Part shown: positions 48,932 to 58,847 of the stretch, piece after piece
How positions within the stretch are numbered: the first letter of the stretch is position 1
How the letters are laid out: each line of letters starts with the position of its first letter
DNA from: Blastocatellia bacterium
GTDB lineage: Bacteria > Acidobacteriota > Blastocatellia > Chloracidobacteriales > JADJPF01
Reading direction: 5' to 3'
Assembly (NCBI GenBank): GCA_025057015.1
Contig: JANWYG010000014.1
Span: 1-64,000, forward strand
Length of the DNA stretch: 64,000 bases
Translations under genes and position numbers: made by a program
Notes under the pieces: generated by a model
Told to the model about the DNA's origin: nothing
What the model saw: the letters and a program-made list of their open reading frames with translations, nothing else
Database searches by the model: none

Positions 48932-49354
48932 TTATTCTTGAGATGAACCGCTCTTTGAATGATGACTAGATTGGTGGGAATGTCTGCGCTTATGACTCAT
49001 CTTTTTAGGCGCGCTAGCAGGCTTAAGTTGCTTCGTAGCTGCTTTTTGCATTCCTTTCTTTGCTATCTGCCTTTTCTTCTTGCTTGATTTCTTAACCTCG
49101 AGCCTTTTAACTACCGTCTTGCCATTCTCGTTGACAAAAGTAAACTTCGTATGTTGACCGCGAGGCAACTGAATGACCGATATGGCTTGCTTGCTAATCA
49201 GCTGCTGTCTGCCCTGAAAGTCGACAGTCACGGAATATCTGTCATAGTCTTTGATTTTGCCTACGAGTTTCAACTTACCTAAGTACAAAGTGACAGAACA
49301 TTGAGCTACCTTTGCGTGCTCCAAAAATACGTCTTGAACGTTAACGTCGTTCAT
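48932..49354 (-). CDS. hfq: Divergent Hfq-like RNA chaperone with long basic tail
   Basis: Hfq is a hexameric Sm-fold protein that pairs small RNAs with mRNAs. Residues about 1-66 follow the Hfq plan: NVQDVFLEHA (Gln7), VTLYLGKLKLVGKIKDYDRY (Sm1), QQLISKQAISVIQ (Sm2). In Sm2 the usual YKHAIS is SKQAIS, so the His and Tyr of the proximal site are replaced. A tail of about 70 residues is rich in Lys, Ser and His (KKSSKKKRQIAKKG, HKRRHSHQSSHHS), far longer and more basic than usual. It is the last gene in the long minus-strand run, 21 bases after the permease gene. The family call rests on the motif pattern. Confidence 0.83.
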   Translation of the reverse strand: MNDVNVQDVFLEHAKVAQCSVTLYLGKLKLVGKIKDYDRYSVTVDFQGRQQLISKQAISVIQLPRGQHTKFTFVNENGKTVVKRLEVKKSSKKKRQIAKKGMQKAATKQLKPASAPKKMSHKRRHSHQSSHHSKSGSSQE

Positions 49355-51315: not shown

Positions 51316-52353
51316 TTAGAACCTGACGACTACGTCCGGGCCGCCTTCAAGTTTGATAGTATCGACAAACCGTACATAACGCGACTCTGTAGTCATTATA
51401 AGAGACTGAGTTCTTATTCCAGAACCAAAGAAACGCACTCCTTTCAGTATAGTGCCATCAGTCACGCCGCAAGCAGCGAAGATGATTTTCCTACCAGGTG
51501 CAAGGTCTGTAGTCGTGTAAACTTGGTTTGGATCTTTTATTCCCATAGCTTTCATCCGCTCTATCACTTCGCTATCGTCGGCAACTTTTTCGAGGTCCTC
51601 TTTAGCAAGTTGGTCCTTAAGCACAAATCGGGCTTGTATTTCACCGTTAAGGCAACGCATAGCGGCAGCCGTAAGCACACCTTCAGGAGCACCTCCTATT
51701 CCCATTAGGGCATGCACACCTGATCCACCCACAGCAGCACTTATTCCTGCTGAAAGATCACCATCGGAAATCAGTTTGATACGTGCTCCGGTGTTACGTA
51801 TCTCCTCGATGAGCTTTTGATGTCGAGGTCTATCTAGCACAGTTATTACCAAATCCCCTATATCACGGCTGAGTCGCCGAGCAAGTATCTTCAGGTTGTC
51901 CTTTACCGGAGCATCTATATCTAGGTGGCCTTTGGCAGCAGGTCCTACTACCAGCTTGTTCATGTATATGTCAGGAGCATTTAGCAGGCCACCCCGCTCA
52001 GCGGCAGCAAGCACCGATATAGCATTCGGGCCACCGGTAGCACACAAATTCGTACCTTCTAGCGGATCTACGGCCAGGTCCATCTCGGGATACTGATGTT
52101 TGTTTTCCTCATCGTCTCCTAAACCTACTCGCTCACCTATATACAGCATAGGAGCTTTGTCACGCTCACCCTCACCTATCACTACTTTTCCTGCTATCGG
52201 CACATACTTGAGCGCCTCTCGCATAGCCTCTACAGCAACATGGTCAGAATACTTGCGCTTGCCCTGCCCCATAGTACGAGCAGAAGCTATAGCTGCTGAT
52301 TCGACGACATGCAGAAAGTCTAACGCCAACTGCTGACTCTTTATCTGCCGCAT
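51316..52353 (-). CDS. glpX: Class II fructose-1,6-bisphosphatase
   Basis: GlpX removes phosphate from fructose 1,6-bisphosphate, the committed gluconeogenic step. The 345 residues show [20 protein letters not shown], the metal/phosphate loop [26 protein letters not shown], and [20 protein letters not shown]. Length and motifs match the GlpX/SBPase-like class. It lies 87 bases after the flavoprotein-like gene and two bases before the NupP-like permease. With ppdK upstream, two irreversible steps of gluconeogenesis share this gene run. Confidence 0.95.
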
Positions 52354-52440: not shown

Positions 52441-53079
52441 CTAAAAGCCAAGCGTACTGCACATATCACAGCGATCGCAAGGTTTACCTTTTTCGATTAT
52501 GCACTGGCGATCTTCTAGAAACTCTAAAAACTCCTCCACAGGAGCACGAGCTATCTGTAACCTAGACGGATGGATGTCATTACGAGGAGTCTGTAAGAGA
52601 GACAAACTCTCGAGTCGCTGTGCCTTTATTTCCCTATCAATCGAGCTATTTGCAGCAGGATTATCTGTAACAGGATTTATGATCTCAATACCAAAGGACT
52701 TAAGCCGGTCTCGCATCTCGGCGATTGCTTTGAAAAGCCCTACGTTGCCATTTCCTCCAGCAAGCATGCCACCGAGCATCGCACGCACAGGTTTGCCATC
52801 ATAAAGCAACTTGACGATAAAATCGACGATAGGGTGCTCGGTCTGAAGCTGCACAAGCCGCGAGACAAAATCCAATGAAGGGGCAACCAGTATTACCTCG
52901 CTATAACCTGATTTAGCTTCAAACTTGTCAGAACAGGCGAAATCAGCCCTAGGAAACATCGACTGAGCCTTCTGCTTAAGCGCCTCATTGGCCTCAGGAA
53001 ACACAAGCACTACTTGCTTTCTTGCCAAAAAGTTGCGCGCTATCTCAGAAGCTATCTGCCTGACTGCTAACTCGTCCAT
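52441..53079 (-). CDS. Flavoprotein-like microcompartment-associated protein with CxxCxxC tail
   Basis: The 212 residues begin with an amphipathic helix (MDELAVRQIASEIARNFLA) of the kind that acts as an encapsulation peptide. An alpha/beta part follows: KQVVLVFPE, SEVILVAPSLDFVSRLV, FIVKLLYDGKPVRAML and RLKSFGIEII, a pattern I match from memory to HFCD-type flavoproteins of microcompartment loci (the P-S/T-L loop and GKPV strand). The C-terminus holds CIIEKGKPCDRCDMC, which could bind a cluster or zinc. Start choice: ATG at 53079; a TTG at 53094 adds five residues. It is directly downstream of two EutN genes, supporting a microcompartment link. Confidence 0.6.
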   Translation of the reverse strand: MDELAVRQIASEIARNFLARKQVVLVFPEANEALKQKAQSMFPRADFACSDKFEAKSGYSEVILVAPSLDFVSRLVQLQTEHPIVDFIVKLLYDGKPVRAMLGGMLAGGNGNVGLFKAIAEMRDRLKSFGIEIINPVTDNPAANSSIDREIKAQRLESLSLLQTPRNDIHPSRLQIARAPVEEFLEFLEDRQCIIEKGKPCDRCDMCSTLGF

Positions 53080-53096
53080 CGTAAAAGCCCACAATT

Positions 53097-53369
53097 TCAG
53101 TCTAGGTCTATGGTATCTACCACAGCCACGATAGCGGCATCTATAGCTCTACCTTCGACAGAAGTAGCAGCTGTAGAAGCTGACCACCCCTCCTGCACTA
53201 CGACTACCAGATCACCTACACCAGCATCTAAGGCATCTAGTGCTAAAAACGAGCTACCTTGCTGTTCACCTTCCAAGCCCACAGGTTGAACCAGCATGAT
53301 TTTACTGCCCACAAGCCCTTTTTCCTTTTGCGTAGCTATAACGTTACCTATTACGCGAGCCAATATCAT
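53097..53369 (-). CDS. EutN/CcmL-family microcompartment vertex protein (second)
   Basis: The 90-residue protein forms pentamers that cap the vertices of bacterial microcompartments. Marks are the start MILARVIGNVIATQKEKGLV, GSKIMLVQPV, LDALDAGVGDLVVVVQEG and the end IVAVVDTIDLD. Its start overlaps the end of the first eutN gene by 26 bases. It shares the GxGDxV turn with its neighbour but is clearly different in sequence, so both may be needed. No BMC hexamer gene lies within the window. Confidence 0.94.
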   Translation of the reverse strand: MILARVIGNVIATQKEKGLVGSKIMLVQPVGLEGEQQGSSFLALDALDAGVGDLVVVVQEGWSASTAATSVEGRAIDAAIVAVVDTIDLD

Positions 53370-53634
53370 ACTCTACATTAACTCGGTCTACTATGCCAGT
53401 AATAGTGCAGTCCGTGGGCACTTCTCTAGGGCTGAAAGGAAAAGAAGACTCTTTCCCTCTACACCAGAAGACCAGTTCACCTACACCAGCACCTACGGCG
53501 TCTATCGATACCATAGGCTTACCAGAGGGCCTGTGCTGCCCGTCCAGAGGTTGAATTACGAGCAGCTTAGCCCCCTGTAACTCAGGATCTTTTATAGTAG
53601 CTACAAGCGTACCTATTACTTTGGCTAACCTCAT
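53344..53634 (-). CDS. EutN/CcmL-family microcompartment vertex protein (first)
   Basis: This 96-residue protein has the EutN/CcmL signature: MRLAKVIGTLVATIKDPELQ, GAKLLVIQPLDGQ, DAVGAGVGELVFWCRG and ITGIVDRVNVEYD. I start it at the ATG at 53634, two bases after the ppdK stop codon; upstream codons in this frame belong to the ppdK reading region. The 3' end overlaps the second eutN gene by 26 bases, so translation of the pair is likely coupled. It has an extended tail after IVDRVNV (EYDIGSRNR) that comes from the overlap. Confidence 0.93.
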   Translation of the reverse strand: MRLAKVIGTLVATIKDPELQGAKLLVIQPLDGQHRPSGKPMVSIDAVGAGVGELVFWCRGKESSFPFSPREVPTDCTITGIVDRVNVEYDIGSRNR

Positions 53635-53636
53635 AA

Positions 53637-56279
53637 CTATGCTGTCTGAGAGCTGGCTTTTGCTACACCAAGAGCAGCTTGTGCCGCTGCAAGCCTTGCT
53701 ATCGGCACGCGATAAGGCGAGCAGCTTACATAGTCTAAACCTATGCGATGACAAAAAGCTACGCTCGACGGTTCGCCTCCATGTTCACCGCAGATACCTA
53801 TCTTGAGGTTAGGTTTCGTGCTGCGTCCGAGTCTTACGGCCATCTCTATCAGCTTGCCAACCCCGGTCTGATCTAGCACTTGAAACGGATCTTCTTTGTA
53901 AATCTTCTGCTCGATGTAGAAAGGTAAAAAACGCCCTGAATCATCTCGACTGAGACCATAGGTAGTCTGTGTCAAATCGTTAGTCCCAAACGAGAAAAAC
54001 TCAGCTTCACGAGCTATCTCGTCAGCAGTCAGTGCCGCTCGCGGCAGCTCTATCATCGTGCCTACGAGATAGTCTACGCTATCTCCCATTTCAGCAAAGA
54101 CTTTAGCAGCTACATCACGCACTATCTCAGCTTGAAGTCGAAGCTCATTTACATCACTGACAAGCGGGATCATAACCTCTGGAAAGACTTTGAAACCCGC
54201 CTTCTTTGCCTGCACGGCAGCTTCAAAGATAGCTCGTGCTTGCATAGCAGTGATTTCAGGATAAAGTATGCCAAGACGACAACCACGGTGGCCCAGCATA
54301 GGATTCATCTCGTGCAAAGCATCTATCTTGCGCTTGAGTTGAGCGACCGTGATATGAAGTTTTGCGGCAAGAGCCTCTATTTCAGCCTCATCGCGCGGTA
54401 AGAACTCGTGCAGCGGCGGATCAAGAGTACGAATAGTCACCGGAAAGCCGTCCATCGCTTTGAATATTCCGAAGAAATCTTCTCTTTGAAGCGGTTCTAT
54501 CTTCGCCAGTGCTTTCTCCCGCTCGGCTTTGCTTTCGGCAACTATCATCTCCCGTACGGCGTCTATCCGGTCTCCCTCAAAGAACATATGCTCAGTGCGG
54601 CACAAACCTATTCCTTCAGCACCAAAGCTGCGAGCTACAGAAGCATCGTTCGGCGTATCAGCATTCGTCCTGACTTTGAGTTTTCGGAAATCATCTACCC
54701 AGCCCATAAATTCGGCAAACGCCTCATCCATCTTCGGCTCAACTAACGGCACTTGCCCGAAAATAACCCTGCCTGAGCTACCATCGACCGTAATATAGTC
54801 CCCCTTATTTATCACATATTCACCAACACTGAAGTTTTCAGAAGCATAGTCTATGTGCAGCGCACCACAGCCTACGACACAACACTTACCCATACCACGG
54901 GCTACTACAGCAGCATGAGAAGTCATGCCTCCGCGGGCAGTAACTATAGCCTGAGCTGCTACCATGCCATGAAAATCATCCGGCGAAGTTTCAACCCGCA
55001 CAAGTATGACTTTCTCGCCAGCTTCTGCCATCTTCACTGCCTCATCTGGGGAAAAAACGACCTTGCCACAAGCAGCGCCAGGACTGGCAGGAAGCCCTGT
55101 AGCTATCACTTTCACTTCAGCCTTAGGATCTACCATAGGGTGCAGCAATTGGTCTAAATGGCCGGGCTCGACGCGCAAGACCGCCGTAGCTTTGTCAATT
55201 AACCCTTCGTGCACCATATCGACGGCGATCCTCACAGCAGCAGCTCCCGTGCGCTTAGCATTGCGCGTCTGCAACATCCAAAGTTTGCCTCGCTCTATGG
55301 TAAACTCCAGATCCTGCACATCTTTGTAATGGCGTTCGAGCATCTCGGCAACTTTGACAAATTGCTCGTATACTTCGGGCATATCTTGTTGTAACTGCGA
55401 GATCTTCTTAGGTGTTCGAATTCCCGCTACTACATCTTCGCCTTGTGCATTCGGCAAATACTCGCCAAAGATGACCTTCTCACCTGTAGACGGATCACGG
55501 GTAAAAGCAACGCCAGTCCCCGAATCGTTGCCCATGTTACCAAATACCATAGCAACTACGTTGACTGCAGTACCAAGATCATCCGGTATTTTATGTACTC
55601 GACGATAATCTACGGCACGACGACCATTCCACGAAGCAAATACAGCCCTTATAGCACGCTCAAGCTGTTGCAGCGGATCGGAAGGAAAGTCCTCCCCTGT
55701 AGCTTCTTTGACTATCTGCTTGAACTCGGCACAGATCTGCTTGAGCGAGTCGACGTCCAAATCTGTATCAAGCACAGCACCAACTTTCTTCTTATAATCC
55801 TCGAAAGCATGCTCAAAGCGCTCTGCATCAACGCCTAAGACTATTTTTCCAAACATATTTATAAATCTACGGTAGGCATCATAAGCAAAGCGCTCATTGC
55901 CAGTAAGCTCTGCAAGGCCTTGTAAGGTCTCTTCATTGAGGCCAAGGTTTAGCACAGTATCCATCATACCCGGCATGCTAAACTTAGCGCCCGACCGCAC
56001 CGAGACAAGAAGTGGATTGTTTCTATCCCCAAAACCCTTGCCGGTAGCTTCTTCAACCTTTTTGAGCGCATCAAGCGTCTGCTGCCACATCCCTTCCGGA
56101 AACTGTTGACCAGACCTGTAGTAAGCCATGCAAGCTTGGGTAGTAATGGTAAAACCTGGAGGAACTGGTAAACCCGCATTAGTCATCTCAGCCAAACCTG
56201 CACCTTTTCCTCCCAACAGGTCTTTCATACTTGCGTCACCTTCGGCCTTGCCGTTTGCGTAAAGATATACGTATTTCAT
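53637..56279 (-). CDS. ppdK: Pyruvate, phosphate dikinase
   Basis: PPDK makes phosphoenolpyruvate from pyruvate, ATP and phosphate (reversible). The 880 residues show the ATP-binding domain (GGKGAGLAEMTNAGLPVPPG), the phosphohistidine domain (TARGGMTSHAAVVARGMGK) and the PEP-utilising barrel (GIGLCRTEHMFF, LVGTMIELPRAAL, FFSFGTNDLTQTTYG, GICGEHGG). It starts four bases after recO and ends two bases before the first eutN gene. In anaerobes and thermophiles PPDK can run in either direction; with glpX downstream, a gluconeogenic role is plausible. A link to a microcompartment is unusual. Confidence 0.97.
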   Translation of the reverse strand: MKYVYLYANGKAEGDASMKDLLGGKGAGLAEMTNAGLPVPPGFTITTQACMAYYRSGQQFPEGMWQQTLDALKKVEEATGKGFGDRNNPLLVSVRSGAKFSMPGMMDTVLNLGLNEETLQGLAELTGNERFAYDAYRRFINMFGKIVLGVDAERFEHAFEDYKKKVGAVLDTDLDVDSLKQICAEFKQIVKEATGEDFPSDPLQQLERAIRAVFASWNGRRAVDYRRVHKIPDDLGTAVNVVAMVFGNMGNDSGTGVAFTRDPSTGEKVIFGEYLPNAQGEDVVAGIRTPKKISQLQQDMPEVYEQFVKVAEMLERHYKDVQDLEFTIERGKLWMLQTRNAKRTGAAAVRIAVDMVHEGLIDKATAVLRVEPGHLDQLLHPMVDPKAEVKVIATGLPASPGAACGKVVFSPDEAVKMAEAGEKVILVRVETSPDDFHGMVAAQAIVTARGGMTSHAAVVARGMGKCCVVGCGALHIDYASENFSVGEYVINKGDYITVDGSSGRVIFGQVPLVEPKMDEAFAEFMGWVDDFRKLKVRTNADTPNDASVARSFGAEGIGLCRTEHMFFEGDRIDAVREMIVAESKAEREKALAKIEPLQREDFFGIFKAMDGFPVTIRTLDPPLHEFLPRDEAEIEALAAKLHITVAQLKRKIDALHEMNPMLGHRGCRLGILYPEITAMQARAIFEAAVQAKKAGFKVFPEVMIPLVSDVNELRLQAEIVRDVAAKVFAEMGDSVDYLVGTMIELPRAALTADEIAREAEFFSFGTNDLTQTTYGLSRDDSGRFLPFYIEQKIYKEDPFQVLDQTGVGKLIEMAVRLGRSTKPNLKIGICGEHGGEPSSVAFCHRIGLDYVSCSPYRVPIARLAAAQAALGVAKASSQTA

Positions 56280-57404: not shown

Positions 57405-58847
57405 TTAACATAGCATGTACTTACCGCCGCTCTCCGTTACTTTACCTTCAGCTATTAGCTTCTCTAGGTGAGAAAGTACCGAGCGCTCGGCCAACGAATA
57501 GAGCGTTTGTGGAGTATCAGTATAAACCTTTTTTACTATGTCGGGGATATTAAATATTCCTTCGCATAGCGCTGACAATATAGCAGCTTCCCGTTCAAGT
57601 CTATGTGAAATGTAAAAGCTTATGCGTTCACGTGCTCCACCCGTAGGTGGTCCATGTGAAGGAAACAGCGCGTCAACATCCAGAACAGCTACTCTATCAA
57701 GCGAAGCAAGATAGGCCTGCAGGTTACCCTCCGGCGGATCTATGACAACCGTACCGAAACCAGCCATGAGGTCACCACATAGCAGCGATCGAGTTTTATG
57801 CTCGTAGAACGAAATGTGATCTTGCGTATGCCCAGGTGTATATAAACTTTCTAGCAGCCAGCCACCTGATAGCTGCCATCGCTCACCATCCGCTATTTTC
57901 CGGTCAACAACAAAAGCATTACCAACACGCTGCTGTGTAAGCGGATGAGCTGCAACTTGCAGCCCATAACGCGCTCTAAGAGCAGCTACCCCTCCTACAT
58001 GGTCAGGATGAAAATGTGTAACAAGTATCTCCTCAAGCTTTGCTCCCTCTGCAATCAAGGTATCTAGGAAATTCTCCAGTCGTTGCTGTTCTTCCTCATA
58101 AGGCGATGCTGGATCTATTATCAGCAACTGTTTGTTACCAACTATGTAACAATTCGTATGCGTTGCCGGCGCAATAGTAGGAGTTCTCAACGGAAAAAGA
58201 AATATCCCGCGCTTAATCTCTATCCGCTCAACGCGGCCTGCGTTCGCTTCTGGTACAGAGTGCAGCCTTTCAAAAAGACCGTCCTTACCTGCTGCAAGCG
58301 ATTGCAAGATATACAGCGTCGGCGGTGCAAGCATTCTGCGCCCAAGCTGCCAGTCTAGAAGCGCGTCTTTAGGCCGCATCCACCTACCATCAGCTAATTC
58401 TCCCCCAGAGACTACTTTCGGCAACTGACCCTCAGGCAAATAAACTAGGAAGAATCTTGTATCAAAACGCCGCGGAGCAAACTCCGGTGTGATCCAACGG
58501 CCAGCAGGCAGAAAATCAGAAGCATGTATTACTAACTCATACCGCTCGAGCAGTTCGACAAACGATTCGCAAGTAGACACCTCGCCAACAACACCGCGAG
58601 CTACGACTACTCTCGTTTCTTCGAAAAGCTCCCTAGCAGCACAAGCAATAGCAGCCTTCTGCTCGGCATCCGTAGCACCAACGACAGGGATCTGAAAGTC
58701 TGCTGCGTCACACTGACCACCAGGAAATGCAGAGAAGCCTCCCATAAAGGCCAAATGCCTTGCCCTCTCAACGAGGTATACTTCGAGTTGCCCATCAACT
58801 GCTTCCCTCAGTAAAACAGCCGAAGCAGCCTTTTTCACTGTCGACAT
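57405..58847 (-). CDS. Nudix hydrolase fused to LACTB2-like metallo-hydrolase
   Basis: A 480-residue fusion. Residues about 5-190 are a Nudix domain of the NUDT19 type: FPGGQCDAAD (41-50), then a 20-residue insert and RELFEET (72-78), where the normal Gly of the Nudix box is Arg. Residues about 215-400 form an MBL domain with THFHPDHVGG (His278, His280, Asp282, His283), YTPGHTQDH and SGD-type CGDLM. A winged-helix tail (about 405-480) as in LACTB2 ribonucleases follows. It may act on nucleotide or CoA esters or RNA; both active sites need testing. It lies three bases downstream of speA. Confidence 0.9.
   Translation of the reverse strand: MSTVKKAASAVLLREAVDGQLEVYLVERARHLAFMGGFSAFPGGQCDAADFQIPVVGATDAEQKAAIACAARELFEETRVVVARGVVGEVSTCESFVELLERYELVIHASDFLPAGRWITPEFAPRRFDTRFFLVYLPEGQLPKVVSGGELADGRWMRPKDALLDWQLGRRMLAPPTLYILQSLAAGKDGLFERLHSVPEANAGRVERIEIKRGIFLFPLRTPTIAPATHTNCYIVGNKQLLIIDPASPYEEEQQRLENFLDTLIAEGAKLEEILVTHFHPDHVGGVAALRARYGLQVAAHPLTQQRVGNAFVVDRKIADGERWQLSGGWLLESLYTPGHTQDHISFYEHKTRSLLCGDLMAGFGTVVIDPPEGNLQAYLASLDRVAVLDVDALFPSHGPPTGGARERISFYISHRLEREAAILSALCEGIFNIPDIVKKVYTDTPQTLYSLAERSVLSHLEKLIAEGKVTESGGKYMLC

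Follow-up and report, generated by a model that had tools for sequence, protein, structure and literature searches.

A conserved cysteine-tail protein of Blastocatellia microcompartment loci: a candidate PduM-like linker with an HFCD-like body

Gene organisation of the locus

In the window (the whole 64,000-nucleotide stretch of DNA analysed here), the open reading frame at positions 52441-53079 is real and lies on the minus strand; it encodes a protein of 212 amino acids, hereafter P0001, from an ATG at 53079, with an in-frame TTG at 53094 as a possible alternative start. A plus-strand reading of the same interval contains stop codons and was rejected. P0001 belongs to a tight run of genes, recO-ppdK-BMC-P-BMC-P-P0001-glpX, in which 4 bp separate recO from ppdK, 17 bp separate the adjacent BMC-P gene from P0001 and 87 bp separate P0001 from glpX:

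51316..52353, minus strand: class II fructose-1,6-bisphosphatase GlpX, downstream of P0001 (PF03320, E 5e-127)
52444..53079, minus strand: P0001 coding sequence, 212 aa (stop codon 52441-52443; supported by homologues)
52444..52572, minus strand: C-terminal Cys module, residues 170-212, HPS...C193...KPC201DRC204DMC207STLGF (tail alignment)
52666..53022, minus strand: predicted HFCD-like alpha/beta body, residues 20-138, without recognisable FMN loop (TIGR02536, VIA-align, motif comparison)
53023..53079, minus strand: predicted N-terminal amphipathic helix resembling an encapsulation peptide (EP), residues 1-19 (AF2 helix; family-wide helical moment, z=7.6)
53097..53369, minus strand: gene for a BMC-P (EutN/CcmL) shell vertex protein, adjoining P0001 on its upstream side (PF03319, E 1e-23)
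53344..53634, minus strand: another BMC-P gene, sharing 26 bp with the one before it in this list (PF03319, E 1.9e-27)
53637..56279, minus strand: pyruvate phosphate dikinase (ppdK), upstream gene in an apparent operon (TIGR01828, 1414 bits)

By synteny, glpX also adjoins the gene of a Cys-tail protein in the genomes G051 and G063. Elsewhere in the window, 48932-49354 encodes an Hfq-domain protein with a long C-terminal tail rich in Lys, His and Ser, and 57405-58847 encodes a single protein in which a NUDIX domain is fused to a metallo-beta-lactamase-fold domain.

The N-terminal helix and the central body

A sequence-only reading of this DNA had placed Leu4, Val6, Ile9, Ile13, Phe17 and Leu18 on one face of an N-terminal helix. 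All six residues are present. With a turn of 100 degrees for each residue, V6, I9, I13 and F17 cluster in a sector of about 80 degrees, whereas L4 and L18 point roughly the opposite way, so the description is only partly right. The helix itself, likened to encapsulation peptides, is upheld: AF2 models place it at residues 3-18 or 3-19, within the 15-20 residues of the terminal amphipathic helices of such peptides. Its amphipathicity is significant for the family and not for P0001 alone, since the N-termini of 40 non-redundant members have a helical moment of 0.541 against 0.401 in shuffles (15-residue window; z=7.6, 0/2000), and that of P0001 is not above its shuffles (p=0.57, 18-residue window).

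In a single-sequence AlphaFold model, with pLDDT mostly 62-84 over residues 21-100, the middle of P0001 (residues 20-138) has the HFCD Rossmann-type fold. The best 13 structural neighbours of this body are UbiX, PadA1, DmrB and PPC decarboxylase, with Z from 8.8 to 7.5 over about 110 residues (VIA-align gives 8.8 for UbiX and 7.5 for PPCDC), below which comes a mixture of other Rossmann-like folds with Z of 7 or less. P0001 also matches the NCBIfam profile TIGR02536 with an E value of 7e-10 (residues 6-160 on profile positions 5-158 of 207), with a score of 38.9 bits against a curated cut-off of 152.6 bits over the full model. The proposed resemblance to HFCD flavoproteins, for which a structural match had been suggested as a check, is therefore real at the level of the fold. 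A match to PF02441, also suggested, was not obtained; with filters on, P0001 matches no Pfam family at E<=10. A PDB sequence search with P0001 gave chance or coiled-coil matches only, and hhalign of the HFCD parts against UbiX and CoaC, with very few sequences, gave no significance.

Inspection beside UbiX and CoaC from the window's genome, and beside P0002, a flavoprotein of the Ilyobacter PDU locus, shows neither the FMN-phosphate loop nor the PxSxNT/GIADN motifs in P0001. Where UbiX reads TGASG and PCSVNTVGMIATGI and CoaC reads VTGCIG and PCTANMMAKFAHGIAD, P0001 reads VFPEANEALK and APSLDFVSRLVQLQTEH, so neither that loop nor the motifs for the substrate are left. P0001 shares its predicted fold with UbiX and PPC decarboxylase but differs from both in these sites and in its additional helix and Cys tail. 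No FMN loop is recognisable; the HFCD body looks inactive, and P0001 probably binds no flavin.

The cysteine tail and its distribution

The tail of P0001 has the pattern C193-x7-C201-x2-C204-x2-C207-x3-GF. At the background of 1.1% Cys in the neighbouring proteins, at least four Cys within the last 20 residues would be expected with a probability of about 7e-5. The sequence-only reading had described this end as a non-standard Cys-rich tail, and the four cysteines are indeed as described and conserved across the family, of which the tail is the best-conserved part. The module in homologues has three invariant Cys, one position that is usually Cys, and a G-F chain end: all 73 collected tails have Cys201, Cys207 and the penultimate Gly, 69 have Cys204 (which gives way to Ser or Thr in the divergent members of G259, G507, G510 and G118), and 71 end in GF or GY. 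The module is modelled with low confidence, and in a second fold made with 31 relatives a helix at residues 181-189 is the sole tail element. The Cys pattern makes metal binding plausible, with Zn, an Fe-S cluster or a disulfide as candidates.

In a phylum sample of 396 genomes, P0001 as query found matches in 22 other genomes, mostly to the tail alone. With a ten-row alignment as query, the tail protein was detected in 124 of the 162 genomes of the class, representing 41 of 53 genera. BMC-P is encoded by 149 of the 162, both genes occur together in 122 (Fisher p 1.8e-6), and in 27 BMC-P was detected but no tail protein was. A scan of the contigs of 84,980 species returned no relatives with P0001 alone as query and 43 with a pattern built on KPCDxCxMC, which fixes Cys2 to Cys4 by construction. 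The titles of these 43 name Acidobacteria, Blastocatellia or Pyrinomonadaceae, with one Chloracidobacterium and one exception that is labelled Actinomycetota, though its contig name says Acidobacteria.

Nearly all homologues are 74-190 amino acids long, and the shortest, below 80, contain little beyond helix and tail. Typically the helix is followed by a coiled-coil-like helix or a low-complexity linker and then by HPSQERF...C..EP..KPCDHC.MC.SRGF at the end of the chain, so that the HFCD middle is missing from nearly all and both ends are retained. In most retrieved loci the tail gene directly follows the BMC-P genes, in the order Rex-aldolase-BMC-H-BMC-P(3)-tail; in G251, G360 and G395 no shell gene was found within about 10 kb of it. 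The family architecture, as judged from these sequences, is thus an amphipathic helix, a variable middle and a four-Cys/GF module, encoded by a gene that often follows BMC-P. The genus g5, which belongs to the same order, stands apart from nearly all others in that BMC-P was found in none of its 7 genomes (2.8-3.7 Mb).

The full HFCD body is found in the window's genome (G000) and in G219, which belongs to another family; the two proteins align by BLASTP (E 7e-10) over the latter half of the body plus the tail. In G401, of the window's own family, the start of an HFCD domain follows BMC-P directly at a contig end, and in G118, of another class, the second half of the domain is kept (TIGR02536, E 0.014). 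A strand-like stretch stands at the expected place of strand 1 in G259, G507 and G510, which as an HFCD remnant is suggestive only. Beyond the families with a full body, two further families carry such remnants. The simplest reading of these sequences would be an HFCD-containing ancestor whose body was lost repeatedly, with both ends retained; the BMC-P tree, in which families f1 and f6 group at 0.58, is too weak for the losses to be counted.

Microcompartment genes of the genome

The window's genome (3.33 Mb in 23 contigs) has its microcompartment genes scattered. Contig C10 carries BMC-H and BMC-P genes after a Rex gene, named by inspection, and a class II aldolase gene, and C23 carries BMC-H with a CoA-acylating aldehyde dehydrogenase. 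The ACI microcompartment type was defined by Sutter et al. 2021 (PMC8217296), who place a hydroxyacid dehydrogenase in the locus among its features. Other features that mark it, namely a class II aldolase with a C-terminal extension, a BMC-P triplet, BMC-H and an aldehyde dehydrogenase off the main locus, are found here on C10, C12 and C23; the scattered genes fit this type. The tail protein may be among the unnamed "proteins of unknown function" mentioned in that paper. Our search for other literature on the ACI type found none. Taken as a whole, the tail proteins very probably form a genuine family of accessory proteins of the ACI microcompartment.

Contig C15 encodes an RnfC-like protein (L012:8370-10249) adjoining a PduT-like BMC-T whose pore-loop region contains a Cys, as well as RpiB and DeoC, both with N-terminal extensions. 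That of DeoC (L013:8612-9460) is amphipathic and has a Cys cluster of its own (CLACNSHCSNRC), and that of the adjoining RpiB matches the C-terminal domain common to TIGR02536 and PduM. Cse2-, Cse1- and Cas3-like proteins of a type I-E CRISPR system, identified by inspection, are encoded near BMC-H and aldehyde dehydrogenase genes (L011:937-5796).

Relationship to PduM and other shell-core linkers

PduM, a linker of low abundance whose N-terminus forms a signal helix (PMC9132943, PMC12108088), is described as lacking known homologues beyond Pdu organelles (PMC12108088). PduM and the N-terminus of EutQ connect the shell to the enzyme core (PMC9132943, PMC12487888, PMC12108088), and two of these three papers disagree on a direct PduB-PduM contact. 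Like P0001, PduM (TIGR04493/PF15953) is a small accessory protein with an N-terminal signal helix and a gene beside BMC-P. By contrast, it keeps a C-terminal ITPxA-type domain where P0001 has the Cys tail, and P0001 matches neither TIGR04493 nor PF15953.

The likeness to flavoproteins of other microcompartment loci, also put forward from the sequence, is borne out by Ilyobacter P0002. This flavoprotein of the TIGR02536 (PDU/EUT locus) type, from Ilyobacter polytropus (WP_013388774), has an N-terminal helix and an HFCD body and is encoded beside a BMC-P (EutN/CcmL) gene, as is P0001; P0001 differs in lacking the C-terminal ITPxA-type domain (profile positions 158-205) and the FMN/GIADN motifs and in having the four-Cys end. 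P0002 (L174:25934-26641) matches PF02441 (E 3e-7), CoaBC (E 2e-8) and TIGR02536 (E 1e-7), and its C-terminal part matches the PduM profile (E 2e-6). The Ilyobacter gene order is PduL-"flavoprotein"-PduN-PduO-like, against PduL-PduM-PduN-PduO in E. coli, and P0002 occupies the slot between PduL and PduN that holds PduM in E. coli.

Because of these profile matches, microcompartment HFCD proteins, TIGR02536 and PduM can be arranged as one chain, and the simultaneous matches of P0002 suggest that PduM is a decayed flavoprotein. A relation of the PduM body to HFCD is only suggested by these comparisons, the BLASTP match between PduM and P0002 being weak and not significant (E 0.16). P0001 is in turn connected to PduM through P0002 and the shared gene position; it fits the chain in helix, body and neighbourhood, and BLASTP between P0001 and P0002 is not significant.

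The EutQ N-terminus, CcmN and CsoS2 also have short helices and flexible segments and tie shell to cargo (PMC12487888). Their likeness to P0001 is one of architecture. We know of no Cys module described in any of them.

Proposed role and alternatives

P0001 probably joins shell to enzymes and does not act as a flavin enzyme itself, because the ends are conserved across the class, and the HFCD middle is missing from most relatives and seems to be inactive in P0001. The best explanation is that it is an HFCD-retaining member of an Acidobacteriota-specific ACI accessory family, in which a Cys tail, probably metal-binding, would replace the usual PduM-like C-terminal domain. Given the shell-core linking done by PduM and by the N-terminus of EutQ, we take PduM as the working analogy. 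That P0001 acts in the ACI microcompartment as PduM does in its own, in assembly or as a linker, we judge about as likely as not. The helix would co-assemble with EP-bearing cargo such as the aldolase and the aldehyde dehydrogenase, the body, a degenerate flavoprotein fold, would serve as spacer or docking surface, and the Cys module would either coordinate metal, as Zn or an Fe-S cluster, or form a small thiol-rich hook contacting the shell. In this way P0001 would hold the enzyme core to the shell or govern assembly, a part played by PduM in Pdu organelles and by the N-terminus of EutQ in Eut organelles.

P0001 could instead be an encapsulated redox protein, with FMN in the HFCD body and an Fe-S cluster on the tail, passing electrons within the organelle or handing them on to a PduS/RnfC-PduT conduit. 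The fold of the body, the four Cys in the spacing C-x7-C-x2-C-x2-C, the RnfC-like protein adjoining a PduT-like shell protein in the same genome and the Rex gene beside the aldolase, BMC-H and BMC-P genes would all suit such a protein, but P0001 has neither a Gly-rich FMN loop nor PxSxNT/GIADN motifs, most members have lost the HFCD domain, Cys204 varies in the four divergent members, and a full-length PduT-like protein occurs in 6 of the 162 class genomes against 124 with the tail. On these grounds the earlier proposal of a redox-active flavoprotein carrying a further redox centre is not supported; we consider a flavin/Fe-S electron carrier unlikely, and less likely than a linker. The same count of PduT-like proteins means that the wide conservation of the tail is not tied to a PduT conduit, and the idea that the two work together was dropped.

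It is equally doubtful that function resides in the Cys tail, which would act on organelle enzymes such as the aldolase as a regulator or chaperone dependent on Zn or Fe-S and would just be delivered by the helix: the conservation of the tail and the homologues that are hardly more than helix and tail agree with this, but no partner came to light. Recruitment of an HFCD-type decarboxylase or a phosphopantetheine/CoA-salvage enzyme into the microcompartment is very improbable, as the structural similarity to PPC decarboxylase is offset by the absent substrate and FMN motifs, the failure to match PF02441 and the dispensability of the domain in relatives.

Returning to the linker role, we tentatively suggest, as a possibility rather than an expectation, that the tail proteins are a previously undescribed family of shell-core linkers, recognisable by a helix for targeting and a C-terminal Cys/GF module that binds metal, that they arose from the microcompartment HFCD flavoprotein by loss of the flavin domain, and that PduM is a parallel product of this decay. 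We found no characterised ACI assembly factor in the literature, and the tail family, present in three quarters of the class, is a candidate for one in microcompartments that are common in abundant soil bacteria. What is kept in this family is its ends and not the flavin fold. If the suggestion is true, PduM would gain an ancestry for the first time, with a testable origin in the HFCD flavoproteins of microcompartment loci.
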